Source: an uncultured Lachnospiraceae bacterium
GTDB lineage: Bacteria; Bacillota; Clostridia; Lachnospirales; Lachnospiraceae
Length of the DNA stretch: 44,568 nt
Assembly (NCBI GenBank): GCA_947629545.1
Contig: CANREE010000013.1
Location: 1-44,568, forward strand
Direction of reading: 5' to 3'
Positions 19,528-39,772 of the stretch are shown here, in pieces. The position numbers and the translations under genes are program-made. Below the pieces are notes generated by a model. The model saw only the letters and a list, made by a program, of their open reading frames with translations, was not told where the DNA came from and did no database searches. Each line of letters starts with the position of its first letter. The first letter of the stretch is position 1.

Positions 19528-19640
19528 CCATGCGGGCAGAAGCGCCAGTGACGCTCTGCCTGTATTTTCATATAAACAGGGCGCCAGTGACGCTTTGCCT
19601 ATATTTCCATGTAAACAGGGCATCAGTGACGCTCTCTCGT
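19522..19640 (+). repeat. Three tandem 40-nt hairpin units of a dispersed repeat family
   Basis: Units start near 19522, 19562 and 19601, each of the form TATTTYCATN...GCGCCAGTGACGCT...GTATTT. Unit 1 folds as GGCAGAAGCG (19535-19544)-CCAGTGA-CGCTCTGCC, with one bulged A. Units 2 and 3 have weaker stems (AGGGCG..CGCTTTGCCT; GGGCATCAGTGACGCT). A further copy lies at 26527-26570 with a different stem. The function is unknown. Confidence 0.75.
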
Positions 19641-19735
19641 ATTTAAAAATATATAAACACATTAAATAATCAATACAATATCATCATAAATGTTGTAATT
19701 ATCTAATTATCTGACAATTATAATAAAAATAAGTC
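19641..19735. other. AT-rich stretch upstream of the gltB promoter
   Basis: About 95 bases are dominated by A and T, with no coding signal. It may act as an UP element for the gltB promoter. I see no clear operator palindrome in it. Confidence 0.4.
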
Positions 19736-19764
19736 TTTACAAATTGCAAAAATCGTAGTATTAT
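19736..19764 (+). promoter_or_regulatory. Sigma-A promoter for gltB-gltD
   Basis: TTTACA (19736-19741), a 17-nt spacer and TATTAT (19759-19764). Transcription would begin near 19771, giving a leader of about 210 nt. Confidence 0.7.
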
Positions 19765-19796: not shown

Positions 19797-19859
19797 AGCC
19801 AAAGAGGGCTGTTTGTGCGGGAGAAAGTTCTCCTGAAAGCACAGGCGGCATTTTTATTT
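19797..19859 (+). promoter_or_regulatory. ANTAR-type dual-hairpin antiterminator overlapping a terminator, gltB leader
   Basis: Hairpin P1 is AGCC (19797-19800), loop AAAGAG, GGCT (19807-19810). Hairpin P2 is GGGAG (19819-19823), loop AAAGTT, CTCCT (19830-19834). Both hexaloops have A at position 1 and G at position 4, the known RNA signature for ANTAR-domain antiterminators. A competing terminator pairs GCTGTTTGTGC (19808-19818) with GCACAGGCGGC (19839-19849) over 11 bp with three G-U pairs, followed by ATTTTTATTT. The P1 3' arm shares bases 19808-19810 with the terminator 5' arm, so P1 and the full terminator exclude each other. A partial echo of the terminator 3' side (CAGCACGGCGGCG, then TATTTTATTT) follows at 19873-19895. 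The stretch from there to gltB shows nothing else. Confidence 0.72.
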
Positions 19860-19980: not shown

Positions 19981-22900
19981 ATGAGTGTGCGAGAGGAGAA
20001 GCTGCCGGGACTCTACGATCCCCGATTCGAGCACGATAACTGCGGCATCGGCGCCGTGGTGAACGTGAAGGGCGTAAAGTCCCGCCAGACCGTGGAGCAG
20101 GCGCTCCATATCGTGGAGAATCTGGAGCACAGGGCCGGCCGCGACGCCGAGGGCAAGACCGGCGACGGCGTGGGGATCATGCTGCAGATCTCCCATAAGT
20201 TTTTTAAGAAGGTGACGAAGCCCCTGGGTTTTGAGCTGGGCGAGGAGAGGGAGTACGGCATCGGGATGTTCTTCTTCCCCCAGGATATGCTGGCCCGCAA
20301 TCAGGCCATGAAGATGTTCGAGATCATCGTGAAGAAGGAGGGACTTAAGTTCCTGGGCTGGCGCGAGGTGCCCATCCATCCGGAGCTGATCGGCGCCAGG
20401 GCCGTGGAGAAGATGCCGTGCATCGTCCAGGGCTTTGTGAAGAAGCCGGCGGAACTGGGGAAGGGCCTGCCCTTCGACCGCCGCCTCTATGTGGTGCGCC
20501 GTGTCTTTGAGCAGAGCAACGACAATACCTACGTGGTGTCCCTAAGCAGCCGGACCATCGTCTATAAAGGAATGTTTTTGGTGAAGGAGCTGCGCCGATT
20601 CTTCCCGGATCTGCAGGATAAGGATTACGAGGCGGCCATGGCCATGGTCCATTCCCGGTTCAGCACCAACACGAACCCCAGCTGGATGCGCGCCCATCCC
20701 AACCGGATCATTGTCCATAACGGCGAGATCAACACGATCCGCGGCAACGTGGACAAGATGCTGGCCCGCGAGGAGACCATGGAGACCGAGTATTTCAAAT
20801 CTGAGATGCACAAGGTCCTGCCCATCATCAACCAGGAGGGCTCCGATTCGGCCATGCTGGACAACGCCCTGGAGTTCATGATGATGAGCGGAATGGATCT
20901 GCCGCTGGCGGTCATGGCCATGATCCCGGCGCCCTGGAGCCACGACAAGTCCATGCCCCAGGAGATCAAGGATTTCTATCACTACTATTCGACGATGATG
21001 GAGCCGTGGGACGGCCCGGCGTCTATCGTATTCTGCGACGGCGATCTGCTGGGCGCGGTGCTGGACCGCAACGGACTGCGGCCGTCCCGCTACTATATCA
21101 CCGACGACGACCAGGTGATCCTGGCTTCCGAGGTGGGCGCCATCGACATCGCCCAGGAGCACGTCGTTAAGAAAGACCGCCTGCGTCCCGGACGGATGCT
21201 TCTGATCGACACGGTGAAGGGCAAGATCGTCCAGGACGACGAGCTGAAGGAATATTACGCGTCCCGCAACCCCTACGGCCAGTGGCTGGATTCCAATCTG
21301 GTGGACATGTCCGATCTGCCGATTCCCAACGTGGCGGTGCCGAAGATGAGCAGAAAGGAGCGGGCGCGGCTCCAGAAGACCTACGGCTACACCTACGAAC
21401 AGTTTAAGACCATGATCCTGCCGATGGCGCAGAACGGCGCGGAGCCGGCCTCGGCCATGGGCTGCGACAGCCCGCTGGCGGTGCTCTCGAAGATGCACCA
21501 GCCGCTGTTCAACTATTTTAAGCAGCTGTTCGCCCAGGTGACCAACCCGCCCATCGACGCGATCCGGGAGGAGATCGTCACCTCCACGACCGTGTATGTG
21601 GGCTCTGACGGCAACCTCCTGGAAGAGAAGCCGGAGAACTGCAAGATCCTTCAGGTGAACAATCCGATCCTGACCGAAACGGATCTTCTGAAGATCAAAT
21701 ACATGAAGAAGCCGGGATTCAAGGTGGAAGTGATCCCGATCACCTATTACAAAAATACGTCCCTGGCCAAGGCCATCGACCGGCTGTTCCTGGAAGTGGA
21801 CCGGGCCCACCGGGACGGCGCCAATATCATCATCCTGTCCGACCGGGACATCGACGAAAACCATGTGCCGATCCCGTCGCTTTTGGCCGTGTCCGCCCTG
21901 CAGCAGCACCTGGTGACGACGAAGAAACGCACCAGCGTGGCGCTGATCCTGGAGAGCGGCGAGCCCAGGGAGGTGCACCATTTCGCGACGCTTCTTGGCT
22001 ACGGCGCCTGCGCGATCAATCCGTACCTGGCCCATGAGACCATCGGATACCTGATCGAGACCGGAATGCTTAAGAAAGACTATTACGCGGCGGTGGACGA
22101 CTACAATTCCGCGGTGCTCCACGGCATCGTGAAGATCGCTTCGAAAATGGGCATCTCCACGATCCAGTCCTACCAGGGGGCGCAGATCTTTGAGGCCATC
22201 GGCATCTCGAAGGAGGTCATTGACAAATATTTTACCAACACGGTCAGCCGCGTGGGCGGCATCTCGCTTGCCGATATCGCCCGCGACGTGGATGTGCTCC
22301 ACTCGGCGGCCTTCGACCCGCTGGGGCTGGATGTGGATCTGACGCTGGACAGTGTGGGAAGCCACAAGATGCGCTCCGGGCAGGAGGAGCATCTGTACAA
22401 TCCGCTGACGATCCATCTGCTTCAGGAGGCGGCCCGCACCGGCAGTTACGAGACGTTTAAGGCGTACAGCCGCGCCCTGACGGAGGAAGGCCAGATGGTG
22501 AACCTGCGAAGCCTTCTGGATTTCAAATTTGACGAGAAGGGCGGCGTTCCCATCGACGAGGTGGAGAGCGTGGACTCCATCGTGAAGCGCTTTAAGACCG
22601 GCGCCATGTCCTACGGCTCCATTTCCCAGGAGGCCCATGAGACCCTGGCGATCGCGATGAACCGCATCGGAGGCAAGTCCAACAGCGGCGAGGGAGGCGA
22701 GAGCCTGGAGCGGCTGGTACCGCAGCCGGACGATTACAACAAATGTTCCGCGATCAAGCAGGTGGCTTCGGGACGTTTCGGCGTCACCTCCCGCTACCTG
22801 GTGAGCGCGAAGGAGATCCAGATCAAGATGGCCCAGGGCGCCAAGCCCGGCGAGGGCGGTCAGCTGCCCGGCGGCAAGGTGTATCCGTGGATCGCTAAAA

Positions 22901-24525
22901 CCCGTCATTCCACCACGGGCGTCAGCCTGATCTCTCCGCCGCCGCACCATGACATTTATTCCATCGAGGATCTGGCGCAGCTGATCTACGACCTGAAGAA
23001 CTCCAACCGGGACGCCCGGATCTCCGTCAAGCTGGTCAGCGAGGCCGGCGTCGGGACCGTAGCGGCCGGCGTGGCCAAGGCCGGGGCCCAGGTGATCCTG
23101 GTGTCCTCCTACGACGGCGGCACCGGCGCGGCGCCCCGCAACTCCATTTACAACGCGGGACTTCCCTGGGAGCTGGGTATCGCGGAGGCGCACCAGACGC
23201 TGATTATGAACGGCCTGAGGGACAAGGTGATCCTGGAGACCGACGGCAAGCTGATGACCGGCCGGGACGTGGCCATCGCCTGTATGCTGGGCGCGGAGGA
23301 ATTCGGCTTCGCGACGGCCCCGCTTGTCACCATGGGCTGCGTGATGATGCGCGTCTGTAATCTGGACACCTGCCCGGTGGGCGTGGCGACCCAGAACCCG
23401 GAGCTGCGCAAGCGCTTTAAGGGCAAGCCGGAGTACGTGATCAATTTCATGCATTTCGTCGCCCAGGAGCTGCGGGAATATATGGCGAAGCTGGGCGTGC
23501 GCACCGTGGATGAGCTGGTGGGTCGCACCGATCTTCTGAAGAAGAAAGAGCATCTGCCTTCCGAGCGGGCGGCCAGCGTGGACATGACCAACATCCTGGG
23601 CAATCCCTACACGGGGATGAAGCTGGCGGGCTACAGGGCGAAGCAGCAGTTTGATTTCAGGTTAAACGAGACCATCGACGAGAATATTTTCTTAAAGAAG
23701 CTGGGACGGGCGCTGGCGGACGGACAGAAGAAGGGACTTCAGATCGACGTTTCCAATGTGAACCGGACCCTGGGAACCATTTTCGGGTCGGAGATCACAA
23801 AACAGTACCCGGACGGGCTGCCGGAGGACTCCTTCACGATCCTCTGCAACGGAAGCGGCGGCCAGAGCTTCGGCGCGTTCATCCCGAAGGGGCTGACGCT
23901 GGAGCTGTCCGGCGACAGCAACGACTACTTCGGCAAGGGCCTGTCCGGCGGCAAGCTGGTGGTCTATCCGCCTACCGGCGTCCCGTTTAAGGCCGAGGAG
24001 AACATCATCATCGGCAACGTGGCCCTCTACGGCGCCACCAGCGGAAAGGCGTTCATCAACGGCATCGCCGGCGAGCGTTTCTGCGTCCGCAACTCCGGCG
24101 CGACGGCTGTCGTGGAAGGCGTGGGAGACCACGGCTGCGAGTACATGACCGGCGGCCGCGTGGTGATCCTTGGCCCCACCGGCAAGAATTTCGCGGCCGG
24201 CATGAGCGGCGGCATCGCCTATGTGCTGGATGAGAAGAACGACCTCTACAAGCGGCTGAACAAGGATCTGGTCTCCATGGAAGAGGTCACCAACAAGTAT
24301 GACGTGCTGGAGCTGAAGGACATGATCAACGAGCACGTGAAATACACCAATTCCTCCCGCGGCAAGGAGATCCTGGAGAATTTCGGCGAGTACCTTCCGA
24401 AATTCAAGAAGATCCTGCCCCACGACTACCGCCGCATGATGAATACGATCGTGCAGATGGAAGAGAAGGGGCTGTCCAGCGAGCAGGCGCAGATCGAGGC
24501 GTTCTACGCCAATACGAGGAAGTAG
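19981..24525 (+). CDS. gltB: Glutamate synthase, large subunit
   Basis: The alpha subunit of GOGAT transfers the glutamine amide to 2-oxoglutarate. A 20-residue propeptide precedes Cys21 (HDNCGIGAVVNV), the N-terminal nucleophile of the class II amidotransferase domain exposed by autocleavage. The FMN-binding synthase domain begins near residue 850 (FKTGAMSYGSISQEAHETLA, GGKSNSGEGGE, GAKPGEGGQLPGGKV). The 3Fe-4S cysteines are in GCVMMRVCNLDTCPVG (about residue 1120). A C-terminal GXGXG beta-helix follows. The full length of 1514 residues is normal. GAGGAGGAAG precedes the ATG. Codon use is strongly biased to G/C in third positions, as in highly expressed genes. Confidence 0.97.
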   Translation: MSVREEKLPGLYDPRFEHDNCGIGAVVNVKGVKSRQTVEQALHIVENLEHRAGRDAEGKTGDGVGIMLQISHKFFKKVTKPLGFELGEEREYGIGMFFFPQDMLARNQAMKMFEIIVKKEGLKFLGWREVPIHPELIGARAVEKMPCIVQGFVKKPAELGKGLPFDRRLYVVRRVFEQSNDNTYVVSLSSRTIVYKGMFLVKELRRFFPDLQDKDYEAAMAMVHSRFSTNTNPSWMRAHPNRIIVHNGEINTIRGNVDKMLAREETMETEYFKSEMHKVLPIINQEGSDSAMLDNALEFMMMSGMDLPLAVMAMIPAPWSHDKSMPQEIKDFYHYYSTMMEPWDGPASIVFCDGDLLGAVLDRNGLRPSRYYITDDDQVILASEVGAIDIAQEHVVKKDRLRPGRMLLIDTVKGKIVQDDELKEYYASRNPYGQWLDSNLVDMSDLPIPNVAVPKMSRKERARLQKTYGYTYEQFKTMILPMAQNGAEPASAMGCDSPLAVLSKMHQPLFNYFKQLFAQVTNPPIDAIREEIVTSTTVYVGSDGNLLEEKPENCKILQVNNPILTETDLLKIKYMKKPGFKVEVIPITYYKNTSLAKAIDRLFLEVDRAHRDGANIIILSDRDIDENHVPIPSLLAVSALQQHLVTTKKRTSVALILESGEPREVHHFATLLGYGACAINPYLAHETIGYLIETGMLKKDYYAAVDDYNSAVLHGIVKIASKMGISTIQSYQGAQIFEAIGISKEVIDKYFTNTVSRVGGISLADIARDVDVLHSAAFDPLGLDVDLTLDSVGSHKMRSGQEEHLYNPLTIHLLQEAARTGSYETFKAYSRALTEEGQMVNLRSLLDFKFDEKGGVPIDEVESVDSIVKRFKTGAMSYGSISQEAHETLAIAMNRIGGKSNSGEGGESLERLVPQPDDYNKCSAIKQVASGRFGVTSRYLVSAKEIQIKMAQGAKPGEGGQLPGGKVYPWIAKTRHSTTGVSLISPPPHHDIYSIEDLAQLIYDLKNSNRDARISVKLVSEAGVGTVAAGVAKAGAQVILVSSYDGGTGAAPRNSIYNAGLPWELGIAEAHQTLIMNGLRDKVILETDGKLMTGRDVAIACMLGAEEFGFATAPLVTMGCVMMRVCNLDTCPVGVATQNPELRKRFKGKPEYVINFMHFVAQELREYMAKLGVRTVDELVGRTDLLKKKEHLPSERAASVDMTNILGNPYTGMKLAGYRAKQQFDFRLNETIDENIFLKKLGRALADGQKKGLQIDVSNVNRTLGTIFGSEITKQYPDGLPEDSFTILCNGSGGQSFGAFIPKGLTLELSGDSNDYFGKGLSGGKLVVYPPTGVPFKAEENIIIGNVALYGATSGKAFINGIAGERFCVRNSGATAVVEGVGDHGCEYMTGGRVVILGPTGKNFAAGMSGGIAYVLDEKNDLYKRLNKDLVSMEEVTNKYDVLELKDMINEHVKYTNSSRGKEILENFGEYLPKFKKILPHDYRRMMNTIVQMEEKGLSSEQAQIEAFYANTRK

Positions 24526-24628: not shown

Positions 24629-26419
24629 ATGGGAAAACCAACCGGTTTTATGGAATATGACAGGGCCAACGCGAAGGCGGCAAGCCCGAAGACGAGAGTA
24701 AAGAATTTCAACGAATTTCACACTCCCTTAATCGAGGCGGAGCAGCGCAGGCAGGGAGCCCGCTGCATGGAGTGCGGCGTGCCCTTTTGCCAGTCCGGTA
24801 TGATGATCAAGGGAATGACCTCCGGCTGTCCGTTAAACAACCTGATCCCGGAGTGGAACGATCTGGTCTATACCGGCAATTGGAAGCAGGCCTACAACCG
24901 GCTGAAACGGACCAACAGCTTTCCGGAGTTCACGTCCCGGGTCTGTCCGGCCCCCTGCGAGGCCGCCTGCACCTGCGGCTTAAACGGCGACCCGGTCAGC
25001 ATCAAGGAAAATGAGTTCGCGGTCATCGAGAAGGCCTACGCCGACGGCCTGGCGGGTCCGAAACCGCCGAAGATCCGCACCGGCAAAAAGGTGGCCGTGA
25101 TCGGTTCCGGCCCCGCGGGCCTTGCGGCCGCGGACCAGTTAAACAAACGGGGCCACAGCGTGACGGTCTACGAGCGGGAGGACCGGGTCGGCGGACTTCT
25201 GATGTACGGCATCCCGAATATGAAGCTGGAGAAGCAGATCATCGAGCGGAAGATTGCCGTCATGGAGGCAGAGGGCGTGACCTTTGTCACCGGCGCGGAC
25301 GTGGGGAAGACCCGGAAGGCGGAGAAGCTTCTGAAGGAATACGACAGCGTGATCCTGGCCTGCGGCGCGTCCAATCCCAGGGATATCAATGCGCCGGGCC
25401 GTGATGCGGACGGAATTTATTTTGCTGTGGATTTCTTAAAATCCACGACCAAATGCCTGCTGGCGGAGCGGGATGCGAAGCTTTCGGCCGAGGCGGCAGA
25501 GGCTGCCGCGCAGGCAGCGAAGGAACGGAAGGCGGCGCCGGTATCGGCGGCCGGGCCTTTCGCGGGAGCCTATGCAGTTGAGCACGGCACAAATGAGGGA
25601 TACGCGGGAGCTTATGCGGCGGAAACCGCCCGCGTCGGTTTAGCAGTACCTGCAGCGGGAAATTTGTCTGGAGACGGAACTGGAAGCATGGCGGGCGTAA
25701 CCGGCGGGATCGGCATATCCGGCACCCCGCGCGGATCGTTGTCCGCGGCCGACACCGCGATGCCGGTCACAAGACTGACCGACGGCAAATACATTTCCGC
25801 CAAAGGAAAGCATGTCATCGTCATCGGCGGCGGCGACACCGGCAACGACTGTGTGGGTACATCCATCCGCCACGGCTGCAAGTCGGTGATCCAGCTCGAA
25901 ATGATGCCAAAGCCCCCGGAGAAGCGGACCGAGGACAATTCCTGGCCGGAGTGGCCCAGGATCCTGAAGACCGATTACGGTCAGGAGGAAGCCATCGCCG
26001 CATTCGGCGGCGATCCGCGGATCTACCAGACGACGGTGAAGGAGTTTAAGAAGAATAAGGAAGGCCGGCTCTGCGCCGCGGTGCTGGTCTCCCTGACGCC
26101 GCAGAAGGACGAGAAGACGGGCCGCACGATGATGGTCCCGGTGGAGGGAAGCGAGCGGGAGGTGCCCGCGGACCTGGTGCTGATCGCCGCCGGATTCCTG
26201 GGCAGCCAGAAATACGTTTCCGATGCCTTCGGCGTGAAGCTGAACGCCCGCACCAACGTGGACACCGCGCCCGGAAGCTATCAGACCAACGTGGAAAAGG
26301 TCTTCGCAGCCGGCGACATGCACCGCGGTCAGTCCCTGGTGGTCTGGGCCATCCGCGAGGGCCGCGAGGTGGCGAAGGAAGTGGACGCGGCGCTGATGGG
26401 GTATACAAATCTGATGTGA
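24629..26419 (+). CDS. gltD: Glutamate synthase, small subunit, with a low-complexity insertion
   Basis: This flavoprotein subunit feeds electrons from NAD(P)H to GltB. N-terminal Fe-S cysteines are in GARCMECGVPFCQSG, SGCPLNNLIPEWND and CPAPCEAACTCGL. The FAD site is VAVIGSGPAGLAAADQL and the nucleotide site is HVIVIGGGDTGNDCVG. At 596 residues it is about 100 longer than the usual 490 or so. The excess is an Ala/Gly-rich stretch at about residues 276-385 (25455-25785), between the two nucleotide-binding motifs. The frame is intact across it. The last 142 bp are duplicated at 28074-28215. It lies 103 nt after gltB. Confidence 0.95.
   Translation: MGKPTGFMEYDRANAKAASPKTRVKNFNEFHTPLIEAEQRRQGARCMECGVPFCQSGMMIKGMTSGCPLNNLIPEWNDLVYTGNWKQAYNRLKRTNSFPEFTSRVCPAPCEAACTCGLNGDPVSIKENEFAVIEKAYADGLAGPKPPKIRTGKKVAVIGSGPAGLAAADQLNKRGHSVTVYEREDRVGGLLMYGIPNMKLEKQIIERKIAVMEAEGVTFVTGADVGKTRKAEKLLKEYDSVILACGASNPRDINAPGRDADGIYFAVDFLKSTTKCLLAERDAKLSAEAAEAAAQAAKERKAAPVSAAGPFAGAYAVEHGTNEGYAGAYAAETARVGLAVPAAGNLSGDGTGSMAGVTGGIGISGTPRGSLSAADTAMPVTRLTDGKYISAKGKHVIVIGGGDTGNDCVGTSIRHGCKSVIQLEMMPKPPEKRTEDNSWPEWPRILKTDYGQEEAIAAFGGDPRIYQTTVKEFKKNKEGRLCAAVLVSLTPQKDEKTGRTMMVPVEGSEREVPADLVLIAAGFLGSQKYVSDAFGVKLNARTNVDTAPGSYQTNVEKVFAAGDMHRGQSLVVWAIREGREVAKEVDAALMGYTNLM
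26278..26419 (+). repeat. Direct repeat copy 1: 3' end of gltD
   Basis: These 142 bp, ending at the gltD stop codon, match 28074-28215 with 8 substitutions by my count (about 94 percent) and no gap. The terminators that follow the two copies are also related. Confidence 0.93.
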
Positions 26420-26534: not shown

Positions 26535-26570
26535 ATGCGAAGAGAGCGCCAGTGACGCTTTCTTCGTATT
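26527..26570 (+). repeat. Fourth copy of the GCGCCAGTGACGCT hairpin family
   Basis: CGAAGAGAGCG (26538-26548), loop CCAGTGA, CGCTTTCTTCG (26556-26566) makes an 11-bp stem with one G-U pair. The core matches the units at 19522-19640, but the outer stem is different and still self-complementary. Confidence 0.75.
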
Positions 26571-31925: not shown

Positions 31926-31953
31926 GATACGGTCACGGAAAACAGAATAAAAC

Positions 31954-32157
31954 GCAGAGTAGATCTGTGCGCGTCAAGTGCCCATCGGACGGGGAGTTGC
32001 CGGTGGGACGAAGGAGACAGGGCGTATGGCGTGGGCTGCAGCCGGACGGATGAAAGTATCGCCGGACTGCAGGCAGGGCCGCGGCAAAGCGGTGCGGTGT
32101 GCCGCACTGCAGGCTGGAATGTCATGATCCCGCGGTGCGCAGGTCGCATCCCGCTGC
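31954..32157 (+). promoter_or_regulatory. THF riboswitch (folT type) with an enlarged internal arm
   Basis: The 5' half contains the THF-riboswitch signature GCAGAGTAGAT, then GCGCGTCAAGTG. A P3 arm pairs CCCA with TGGG and carries the loop region GGACGGGGAGTTG, followed by GACGAAG. The 3' half has GCGGTGCGCAGGTCGCATCC and closes with CTGC (32154-32157) against GCAG (31954-31957). The P2 arms TCTGTGC and GCGCAGG pair with G-U allowance. Between GAAG (near 32012) and GCGGTG (near 32132) about 115 nt replace what is normally a very short hairpin. The insert itself is hairpin-rich, with three CTGCAG palindromes. The gene downstream is a folate transporter, which fits. Confidence 0.8.
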
Positions 32158-37638: not shown

Positions 37639-37667
37639 TTGACATTTTCCTGTTCTGCTGATATGAT
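37639..37667 (+). promoter_or_regulatory. Sigma-A promoter for glnA
   Basis: A perfect TTGACA (37639-37644), a 17-nt spacer and TATGAT (37662-37667). The leader to the start codon is about 125 nt. Confidence 0.85.
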
Positions 37668-37679
37668 TTTCACATATGT

Positions 37680-37716
37680 ATGTAGCAAGGGGGTTACATT
37701 GATTTGTGACACCCTT
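37680..37716 (+). promoter_or_regulatory. Possible ANTAR-type hairpin with competing stem in the glnA leader
   Basis: ATGTAGC (37680-37686), hexaloop AAGGGG, GTTACAT (37693-37699) forms a 7-bp stem with one G-U pair. The loop has A at position 1 and G at position 4. It excludes a second stem, AAGGG-g-GTTACA (37687-37698) with TGTGAC-a-CCCTT (37705-37716), which is followed by CTCTGTTGTTC. A clear second hexaloop hairpin is not evident, so the motif is incomplete. Confidence 0.45.
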
Positions 37717-37799
37717 CTCTGTTGTTCGGAGATGCGGCTGCGACGGGGATCCTGCATCGTTCCGAGACAGAAATCCGACCGGAAAAGGAGATCGTGATC

Positions 37800-39137
37800 A
37801 TGGGAAGATACAACAAAGAAGATATCATCCGTATGGTGGAAGAGGAGGATGTGGAGTTCATTCGTCTGCAGTTTACGGATATGTTCGGGATGCTGAAAAA
37901 TGTGGCCATCACGGCCGGACAGCTCGGCAAGGCGCTGGATAACCTCTGTATGTTTGACGGTTCCGCCATCGAAGGCTTCGTGCGGGAGGAGGAGACGGAT
38001 ATGTACCTGCATCCGGATCTGGACACCTTCGAGATCTTCCCGTGGCGGCCCCAGCAGGGAAAGGTGGCCCGGCTTCTCTGCGACGTTTACTGTCCGGATG
38101 GGACGCCGTTTGAGGGGGATCCCCGGTATGTTTTTAAGAAGGTGCTGAAAGAAGCCGAGGACATGGGGTATTATTTCAATGTGGGGCCGGAGTGCGAATT
38201 TTTCCTGTTCCACGCCGATGAAGAAGGACGTCCCACGACCCAGACCCATGAGACGGCCGGATATTTCGATGTGGCGCCCATTGATCTGGCGGAAAATGTA
38301 CGCCGCGATATCGTGCTGAACCTGGAGGAGATGGGTTTCGTCATCGAATCCTCCCATCATGAGATCGCGCCTGCACAGCATGAGGTGGATATCCAGTATG
38401 AATTGGGATTGAAGGCGGCGGATAACATCGTTACATTTAAGAATGCAGTGAAGACGATTGCCAAGCGCCACGGCCTTCACGCGACTTTCATGCCGAAGCC
38501 CAGGGCGGGGATTAATGGATCCGGTATGCATATCAATATGTCGCTGGAGGACGGCCTCGGCAAGAACCTGTTCTCGGATCCATCCGACAGCATGGGCTTA
38601 AGCCAGCTGGCGTACCAGTTTCTGGCCGGGATCCTGTACCATATTGAATCCATGACGATACTGACGAATCCGCTGGTGAATTCCTATAAGCGGCTGATTC
38701 CCGGTTATGACGCGCCGGTTTATATCGCATGGGCGTCTGCGGCCAACCGTGGCCAGGTCATGCGGATCCCTTCCAATCGGGGGGCCTCTACCAGAATCGA
38801 GCTTAGAAGTCCGGATCCTGCCATGAATCCGTATCTGGCTCTTGCGGCCTGTCTGGCTGCCGGTCTCGACGGCATCCGGCGCGGAATGGTACCGCCGCAG
38901 CCGTTTTACGGCAATGCGTTTTCCCTGTCCAGGGCTGAGATGAGGAGGAGAGGCATCCGTCATCTGCCGGAGACGTTGGGAGAGGCGATCGAACAGTTTG
39001 AAAACGACGAATTTCTGGAGTCGGTGCTTGGCGGAACTGTCTATAATAAGTACCTGGAGGCGAAGAAGAAAGAATGGAATGAGTTCCGCAGTCAGGTAAC
39101 GGACTGGGAACTTGGGGAATATCTGTACAAATTTTAA
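37800..39137 (+). CDS. glnA: Glutamine synthetase, type I
   Basis: It makes glutamine from glutamate, ammonia and ATP. Family motifs: FTDMFGMLKNVAI, FDGSAIEGFVREEETDMYL, GPECEFFLF (metal Glu), NGSGMHINMSL (ATP site), KRLIPGYDAPVYIAWASAANR and RIELRSPDPAMNPYLALAA. Length is 445 residues. I see no Tyr-type adenylylation loop of the enterobacterial (beta) form, so this is the shorter Gram-positive form. ATG at 37800 follows AAGGAG by 9 nt; the frame is open upstream to 37722 but has no family similarity there. Confidence 0.96.
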   Translation: MGRYNKEDIIRMVEEEDVEFIRLQFTDMFGMLKNVAITAGQLGKALDNLCMFDGSAIEGFVREEETDMYLHPDLDTFEIFPWRPQQGKVARLLCDVYCPDGTPFEGDPRYVFKKVLKEAEDMGYYFNVGPECEFFLFHADEEGRPTTQTHETAGYFDVAPIDLAENVRRDIVLNLEEMGFVIESSHHEIAPAQHEVDIQYELGLKAADNIVTFKNAVKTIAKRHGLHATFMPKPRAGINGSGMHINMSLEDGLGKNLFSDPSDSMGLSQLAYQFLAGILYHIESMTILTNPLVNSYKRLIPGYDAPVYIAWASAANRGQVMRIPSNRGASTRIELRSPDPAMNPYLALAACLAAGLDGIRRGMVPPQPFYGNAFSLSRAEMRRRGIRHLPETLGEAIEQFENDEFLESVLGGTVYNKYLEAKKKEWNEFRSQVTDWELGEYLYKF

Positions 39138-39226: not shown

Positions 39227-39772
39227 GTGACCAATATCATCGTGGCGTTCTCGAAACCGGAGGACGCGAGGAATATTAAAAATATCATAGTTAAAAACGG
39301 CTTTCCGGTAGTCTCGGTCTGCTCATCCGGCGCGCAGACGATCAGTGGTCTGGACGGGCTCCACGGGGGGATCATTGTCTGCGGGTACCGTTTCAGCGAT
39401 ATGCTGTATGCGGAACTAAGGGAGCTGGTACCGCCGGAATTTGCGATTCTCTTAGTGGCGTCCGCGCGGCGGATAGGAGATACGCTGCCGGATGGTGTGA
39501 CCTGGCTTCCTATGCCGCTTATGGTCCATGATCTTCTGGAAACGCTGCACGGGCTGGATGAAGAGCAGTTGCGAAAGAAAAAGATTGCCAGACAGAAACC
39601 TGCAGTGCGGAGGGAAGAAGACCGTCAGGCGATCGCGCAGGCGAAAGAGATGCTGATGGCCAGAAATAATATGACGGAGAACGAAGCCCATCGGTATATC
39701 CAGAAATGCAGCATGGACAGTGGAAGTAATATGGTGGAAACGGCGCAGAAGCTGATCCGCCTGATGGCGTAG
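39227..39772 (+). CDS. ANTAR domain antiterminator with degenerate receiver domain, NitR-like
   Basis: A 181-residue RNA-binding regulator. The C-terminal ANTAR domain reads AIAQAKEMLMARNNMTENEA, HRYIQKCSMDS and MVETAQKLIRLM, matching the three-helix family pattern. The N-terminal part resembles a response-regulator receiver (NIIVAFSKPEDARNIKNIIV), but the phospho-acceptor position in GGIIVCGYRFSDM has no Asp and the acidic pair is missing, so phosphorylation is unlikely. A helical linker joins the two. It follows glnA by 89 nt, the arrangement known for nitR in solventogenic Clostridium. It probably prevents termination at nitrogen-assimilation leaders. Start is GTG at 39227 after GGGGGTGA. 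Confidence 0.88.
   Translation: MTNIIVAFSKPEDARNIKNIIVKNGFPVVSVCSSGAQTISGLDGLHGGIIVCGYRFSDMLYAELRELVPPEFAILLVASARRIGDTLPDGVTWLPMPLMVHDLLETLHGLDEEQLRKKKIARQKPAVRREEDRQAIAQAKEMLMARNNMTENEAHRYIQKCSMDSGSNMVETAQKLIRLMA

Follow-up and report, generated by a model that had tools for sequence, protein, structure and literature searches.

Comparison of leader sequences indicates that the leader of the glutamate synthase gene gltB in an uncultured Lachnospiraceae bacterium, called a gut bacterium, is a real attenuator which contains one recognition hairpin instead of the two assumed in a first-pass annotation of the same DNA. The window, i.e. the whole stretch analysed, comprises the 44,568 nt of contig CANREE010000013.1 (assembly GCA_947629545.1). 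We think it rather probable that the hexaloop hairpin of this attenuator, designated P1, is held by the ANTAR protein whose gene lies beside glnA. By default, the nascent RNA would fold into a terminator (19808-19849) with a second hairpin (19819-19834) as its apex and transcription would stop before gltB. When active, presumably under nitrogen shortage, the glnA-adjacent ANTAR protein would hold the single P1 hairpin, and P1 held in this way would mask the beginning of the terminator 5' arm, leading to read-through into gltBD. The gltB element may be a divergent member of a nitrogen regulon of the Lachnospiraceae that includes glnA and, in the own genome, a GSIII gene. With moderate confidence we favour the view that this regulon works via antiterminators of about 42 nt with one hexaloop each, which are read by a phosphorylation-independent ANTAR protein, and that the gltB element of the genus has evolved locally as a divergent member. 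As proposed, the regulon covers GSI, GSIII, GOGAT, P-II/Amt, AsnB, PurF, PyrG and amino-acid transporters, its elements being located mostly at the 5' end of the mRNA.

All leader elements and genes described for the window lie on its + strand. The gene gltB (19981..24525), assigned by Pfam and NCBIfam as glutamate synthase large subunit, is followed by a gltD-like gene for the small subunit (24629..26419; TIGR01317). It is preceded by a sigma-70-like promoter, TTTACA-17-TATTAT (19736..19764), similar sequence being present in most rows of the genus alignment. Between this promoter and the gltB start codon, as the first-pass annotation had placed them, two hairpins with the hexaloops AAAGAG and AAAGTT are found, and the described spacer of 8 nt (19811-19818) separates them. 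The first one, P1 (AGCC-AAAGAG-GGCT, 19797..19810), represents a putative ANTAR antiterminator hairpin by virtue of its conservation in attenuator-bearing leaders. The second one (GGGAG-AAAGTT-CTCCT, 19819..19834) is best read as the apex of an intrinsic terminator (19808..19849), which is supported by covariation and by the predicted fold. The 11-bp stem of this terminator (19808-19818 paired with 19839-19849) consists of eight Watson-Crick and three G-U pairs and directly precedes the U-tract ATTTTTATTT (19850..19859). Its 5' arm starts within the 3' arm of P1, with which it shares three nucleotides (19808-19810).

The predicted folds reflect this overlap. Folding of the RNA up to 19838 yields both hairpins, while folding up to 19860 yields the terminator, whose apex is then the second hairpin; the evaluated energies amount to -5.0 kcal/mol for P1, -11.3 kcal/mol for the two hairpins and -23.6 kcal/mol for the terminator including the apex. 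P1 and the terminator are predicted to be mutually exclusive, as had been claimed for the first hairpin and an 11-bp terminator with a T-run, whereas the second hairpin is compatible with the terminator. Moreover, this second hairpin is predicted to favour a tetraloop (-7.5 kcal/mol) over the AAAGTT hexaloop (-6.3 kcal/mol). A scan of both strands of the window for pairs of hexaloops with A at position 1 and G at position 4 (A1/G4) on stems of at least four pairs returned the gltB leader as the single case; by chance, about 0.5 such pairs per strand of the whole window are expected, with a P of about 0.0008 per shuffled 250-nt leader. The terminator is absent from the output of a simple terminator scan, presumably because its loop contains a hairpin. 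A search of the gltB leader with the Rfam covariance models returned no family at gathering score and only a chance snoRNA match (E 3.3). Two further candidate elements were rejected upon reading the alignment by eye: a leader peptide across the gltB hairpins, since the open frame is lost between relatives, and a recruitment hairpin upstream of P1, since the heptaloop hairpin predicted in the own genome is not kept.

Further elements in the neighbourhood of gltB and elsewhere in the window may be recorded here. A AATTATCTGACAATT box (19705..19719), which precedes the -35 element of gltB by about 16 nt, constitutes a candidate site of a DNA-level regulator, perhaps a transcription factor site. 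As a loose pattern it is present upstream of gltB at 17 of 20 loci of the genus, both with and without attenuator, some of these matches maybe being located elsewhere. A short interspersed repeat, GCGCCAGTGACGCTCTGC, and variants of it with one and three mismatches occur at 19542-19559, 19581-19598 and 26546-26563, i.e. in two copies upstream of gltB and one behind gltD; a related species has one copy of this repeat type in the region of its glnA leader (L195 and L281, both from genome G011). A THF riboswitch (RF01831, 48.3 bits) is located at 31953-32040, upstream of the next ORFs.

A single-hexaloop version of the switch, missing from the first-pass annotation, is present in front of glnA within the same window. 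The gene glnA (37800..39137; TIGR00653) encodes a type I glutamine synthetase and is preceded by the promoter TTGACA-17-TATGAT (37639..37667), which was read from the sequence and is similar in the genus leaders. The switch itself (37679..37720), recognised from leader comparison and fold, comprises a 7-bp hairpin (ATGTAGC-AAGGGG-GTTACAT, 37680-37699) and a terminator whose 5' arm is made up of the loop and 3' arm of that hairpin; the U-tail of this terminator is weak in the own genome. We examined 77 glnA leaders, 59 from the family and 18 from the genus including the window, and left out the paralogs L199, L201, L202 and L209. The rule applied called for a hexaloop [A/G]A[A/G]G.. with a C-G closing pair and a stem of three or more pairs, the longest stem being preferred among alternatives. 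By this rule a single-hexaloop hairpin is present in 44 of the 77 leaders (27 family, 17 genus), in 42 of them along with an overlapping terminator. Shuffled leaders gave about 3.1 hexaloops and about 0.15 hexaloops with a terminator, and the 77 reverse strands gave none. The 33 leaders devoid of a hexaloop include those of genes which, by eye, seem to reside inside longer operons. A looser rule, which retrieved 34 of 81 leaders against 11.2 expected in shuffles, was too permissive and was replaced.

Covariation at glnA has to be judged against this selection, which required A2, G4, the C-G closing pair and a stem of three pairs while leaving the fourth pair free. Of the 37 distinct rows, 14 have G-C as the fourth pair, nine A-U, seven U-A and two G-U, and five are unpaired there. 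Across the five stem pairs, both sides are changed in 28 cells compared to 11.4 in shuffles, a number reached in none of 500 shuffles; 23 of these cells belong to the two outer pairs, which come nearest to an unbiased test since the inner features were demanded by the selection. Loop position 1 is A or G, while the constancy of G4 results from the selection. Two genomes, G009 and G024, harbour a second, divergent GlnA-like gene (L199 and L201, about 41% identical) that has an ANTAR neighbour of its own and a different leader.

The covariance model R2 was trained on 21 glnA leaders and applied to 100 family genomes, each representing a different genus; L257 was left out of alignment A2, and two of 23 candidate rows were left out of alignment A3. 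The window glnA leader, being itself part of the R2 training alignment, scores 34.5 bits. At E ≤0.1 the model returned 88 matches, 22 at ANTAR-linked glnA genes and 66 elsewhere, of which 65 were read, one member of a tandem pair (G117:C130:9905) being left out. These 65 sites are spread over 43 genomes. The gene downstream belongs to a core of nitrogen functions in 44 of them, namely GSIII (22), P-II/Amt (10), AsnB (3), PurF (3), GOGAT (2) and GlnA, CarA, PyrG and GdhA (one each), the CarA site having an atypical P1 with A-T closure. The core share amounts to 6/8 at E ≤0.001 and to 18/25 at E ≤0.01. Outside this core, the sites precede genes for ATP-grasp (4) and PPDK-N-like (3) proteins, amino-acid ABC ATPases (2) and, once each, a periplasmic binding protein, DapF, PucR, LuxR, TGT, NAGidase, MarR, an EutA-like protein and an amidase; three have no assigned gene. 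The P-II genes (most rows) as well as the EutA-like, MarR and amidase genes were named by eye. One of the 65 sites, L346 at glnA of genome G082, probably belongs to the ANTAR-linked glnA of that genome on a broken contig, and another one, L371, is located 2.6 kb beyond an ANTAR gene. The own genome contains an additional site in front of a GSIII gene (contig C109, 27-71, E 0.47). Within the genus 16 loci were read, two of them before glnA, eight before GSIII and two before amino-acid-type ABC ATPase genes, the remaining four being other or unassigned. For three GSIII proteins NCBIfam at E 1e-20 returned no family, while Pfam did assign them. Rfam applied to nine regulon loci gave two weak matches to eukaryotic-type families, with E up to 1, both outside the elements.

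A few of these leaders are worth recording in their own right. The element stands before circularly permuted ATP-grasp genes (L337, L360, L361, L364), PPDK-N-like genes (L324, L328, L333) and the EutA-like gene (L379, named by eye), of which the EutA-like gene alone is an obvious nitrogen gene. Two R2 matches lie in tandem, 68 nt apart, before a GSIII gene (G117:C130:9905-10014), and by eye the gltB leader L345 of genome G064 (190-280) seems to hold two single-hexaloop switches in tandem, each with a terminator.

The loops of the 65 sites have A1 in 61, A2 in 65, G4 in 64 and G5 in 65 cases. The commonest loop, AAAGGC (39 sites), is of a kind favoured by the model and recurs as P1 loop in L007 and L021, the two more distant gltB relatives. 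At the 50 of 65 sites where both promoter boxes occur within the searched distance, the median distance from the -10 box to the start of P1 is 11.5 nt, and in 44 cases this distance does not exceed 22 nt, which leaves no room for a recruitment hairpin at most sites. None of the 65 sites has a second A1/G4 hairpin of at least 4 bp within 45 nt upstream, where 1.3 would be expected; if 3 bp are allowed, five were found compared to 2.9 expected. In the 60 nt downstream, such hairpins of at least 4 bp are present at eight of the 65 sites compared to 2.5 expected, an excess which is not clean since this segment takes in terminator apices.

The ANTAR protein of the window (39227..39772; PF03861) possesses a degenerate receiver domain and is the only ANTAR protein found in its own assembly, which is rated 83% complete. 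That its gene adjoins glnA had been recognised before; the arrangement recurs in 59 of 60 fetched family loci, the remaining one ending at a contig edge (the 12 lowest-scoring relatives were left out). The homology of the protein to EutV extends across both domains (E 0.00016). We aligned 78 sequences including that of the window and inferred the EutV numbering by letter matching to the paper. Lys149 and Glu160, which contact G4 in EutV, as well as the loop plug Met172 are kept in 78/78 sequences. At the Tyr164 position His is present in 74/78, and at that of Arg142, a further G4 contact, Arg or Lys occurs in only 36/78. Residues contacting the RNA backbone are changed, Arg168 to Gln in 78/78 and Arg175 to Gly in 72/78. 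The position of the phospho-acceptor Asp54 is occupied by Gly in the window protein and by G, S, A or P in all 78 sequences; the window protein lacks the Asp expected of a two-component response regulator of the EutV type.

To assign ANTAR presence in the 100 genomes we used a Pfam domain search, by which 89 genomes have the domain and 11 do not; assignment by similarity to the window protein, according to which 28/100 would lack it, was wrong for 17 genomes and was replaced. R2 sites are present in 55 of the 89 ANTAR-bearing genomes and in none of the 11 ANTAR-lacking ones (Fisher P 7e-5, or 38/72 versus 0/11 with P 7e-4 once the 17 training genomes are removed), figures to be read in view of the fact that the genomes are related, so that the trials are not independent, and that the ANTAR-lacking set includes two assemblies less than 70% complete. 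This distribution bears on the possibility that P1 competes with the terminator as proposed, yet is read by another RNA-binding protein or by a small ligand. Two genomes, G018 and G020, are in favour of such a factor, since they contain gltB P1 together with a GSIII leader of the R2 family (E 0.55 and 3.1e-4) while, at rated completeness of 98 and 99%, no ANTAR domain was detected in them. However, glnA was not found in either genome, and dapF is absent from G018 and only 48% identical in G020; hence, the ANTAR locus may have fallen into an assembly gap or have been lost. That R2 does not score the gltB element would also agree with another factor, whereas the absence of R2 sites from the 11 ANTAR-lacking genomes against their presence in 55 of the 89 others, the conservation of the G4 hexaloop along with two G4-contacting ANTAR residues, and the lack of a relevant family among the Rfam matches argue against it. 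We regard a different reader of P1 as unlikely and the ANTAR protein as the more probable one.

Orthologous gltB leaders allow the number of recognition hairpins to be assessed. A protein search in 26 genus genomes gave gltB-like matches in 22 of them, and 20 leaders from 23 rows were used (L006, L022 and L023 were dropped for want of upstream DNA or on account of about 30% identity). The attenuator is present in ten of these leaders and absent from the other ten. In all ten attenuator-bearing leaders GCCAAAG..GGC is constant, the P1 loop reading AAAGAG in eight and AAAGGC in two, so that A1 and G4 are invariant (10/10), and every one of the ten has a G4 hexaloop supported by three or more pairs. 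The 5' arm of P1 is constant in 10/10 although it lies outside the terminator, while the outermost pair is kept in seven leaders and lost in three. In the terminator helix 97.3% of the cells over the ten sequences are paired, and three pairs are changed on both sides. No compensatory change is seen among the 3-4 bp of the P1 stem in these ten leaders, since P1 hardly varies. An A1/G4 loop in the second hairpin, in contrast, is confined to the own genome (1/10): the AAAGTT of the window corresponds to AAGTTT, AGGTTT, AGGTAT or GAGTCT in seven other leaders, and in L007 and L021, the most distant ones, no A1/G4 hexaloop fits at this position.

Conservation of A1 and G4 in orthologous leaders was the check that the first-pass annotation had set for its dual-hairpin ANTAR architecture, and the two loops answer it differently. 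The first passes in every leader, and the conserved hexaloop hairpin which excludes a covarying terminator stands; the second hexaloop, unique to the own genome among the ten leaders, does not pass, and with it the reading of two recognition hairpins fails. A canonical target at which the protein visits AAAGAG and then AAAGTT before gltB would accord with the A1/G4 identity of both loops in the own genome and with the 8-nt linker, which falls inside the 5-12 nt reported for eut leaders. We nonetheless consider such a target improbable, because its second loop is missing from nine of the ten leaders, no upstream partner hairpin of at least 4 bp exists at any of the 65 regulon sites, and the second hairpin is compatible with the terminator, so that termination should still proceed if this hairpin alone were held. 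Lacrimispora and Hungatella are among the named relatives in a species collection of 80 gltB loci, and the organism is probably a Lachnospiraceae bacterium close to these two. The same search in this collection, of which 77 loci were used (L108, L131 and L167 have little or no upstream DNA), found the dual A1/G4 motif in 0/77 leaders (0.15 by chance), at least four of these loci (L109, L113, L114, L117) repeating the genus set. Just as doubtful is a constitutive weak terminator or a 5'-UTR stability hairpin with P1 conserved through close kinship: eight of the ten leaders, the own one included, do belong to closely related genomes, with at least 97% identity in the gltB part, and the P1 pairs lack compensatory changes, but the flanks vary where GCCAAAG..GGC does not, even in the two more distant leaders, and this design is found again at glnA, where it covaries, and at GOGAT of two other genera (L345, L382).

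A covariance model of the gltB leader, R1, finds the attenuator in 10 of the 26 genus genomes at E <1e-12, all of them training sequences; a weaker match in G019 has E 9.9e-5. The ANTAR domain is present in 23 of the 26. Among 299 family genomes only two, both from the genus of this bacterium, reach the E <1e-12 level, the next-best match being G084 with E 8.8e-5. R2 assigns the window gltB leader 4.6 bits, while a match on the reverse strand there scores 6.6, and of the nine other attenuator-bearing gltB loci only L021 is notable (14.1 bits, E 0.31). Due to this failure of R2 we describe the gltB element as working like the R2 family rather than as belonging to it; yet GOGAT leaders of two other genera, L345 and L382, do score with R2, which makes gltB a plausible member by function. 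Since the element is divergent and unscored by R2, we infer its link to the ANTAR protein. Control by the ANTAR protein is likely on the evidence of comparison, most strongly for glnA and GSIII and less so for gltB.

Several features of the proposed regulon have counterparts in known systems. The dual-hairpin ANTAR motif was established by Ramesh 2012 (PMC3369931) who, in the part of the paper available to us, predict ANTAR sites before genes of other bacteria which serve the synthesis of glutamate and glutamine or encode P-II and ammonium transporters. For Desulfotomaculum and others, the genes of GOGAT, glutamine synthetase, P-II and ammonium transporters are predicted to be ANTAR-controlled much as here, but these sites were found with a dual-hairpin model, and Lachnospiraceae are not named in that part. 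For NitR of C. saccharobutylicum, an ANTAR protein said to be capable of antitermination, the accessible text of PMC6316151 describes induction of GS/GOGAT genes at nitrogen limitation through antitermination and credits it to Stutz 2007. Owing to these predictions and to NitR, the idea of an ANTAR-run GS/GOGAT circuit, also voiced in the first-pass annotation, is not new but already in print. As regards gene order, glnA of the window has the ANTAR gene as its neighbour, and the nitR gene of Clostridium saccharobutylicum, too, is presumably located near glnA.

The eut system of Enterococcus faecalis resembles the leaders studied here, as far as the consulted parts of its literature go, in the hexaloop with A1 and G4, the overlap with the 5' base of an intrinsic terminator, the ANTAR protein and the nitrogen theme. 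The closing pairs of eutP (A27-C28 with G35-U36) are also the commonest in the regulon (C-G in 63/65, then A-U in 49/65), R2 favouring them, while P1 of gltB is closed by C-G and C-G. Unlike eut, the regulon sites have one hexaloop and mostly no room upstream for a recruitment hairpin, and unlike EutV, the window ANTAR protein has no phospho-acceptor Asp and several changed RNA-backbone contacts. According to the available part of Walshe 2022 (PMC8934654), the minimal ANTAR site is redefined as a single hexaloop (G4, stem of at least three pairs) in which G4 is the only base contacted specifically; this fits the constant G4 and the looser position 1 in our leaders. The same source states that antitermination by EutV needs contact with each of two hexaloops, which, together with the 3-4 bp of gltB P1, is a caveat to the ANTAR reading, and that single hexaloops need bioinformatic and experimental work. 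If one hexaloop is sufficient in the Lachnospiraceae, this is perhaps because the loop lies in the terminator 5' arm.

A literature search judged by titles and the beginnings of abstracts returned no paper on single-hexaloop ANTAR antiterminators before terminators, nor one on an ANTAR regulon or ANTAR control in Lachnospiraceae, and a nitrogen regulon of single-hexaloop antiterminators would be a new form of the known ANTAR control. The leaders presented here provide many candidate single-hexaloop cases before terminators; they share an evident physiological theme and offer a short RNA for testing. Should they be confirmed, they would suggest that a receiver without phospho-acceptor takes its signal another way, e.g. 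via a partner protein, as in AmiR-AmiC, where the signal passes through the partner. They would further show that one hexaloop can suffice, and the Lachnospiraceae would gain an ANTAR nitrogen regulon.
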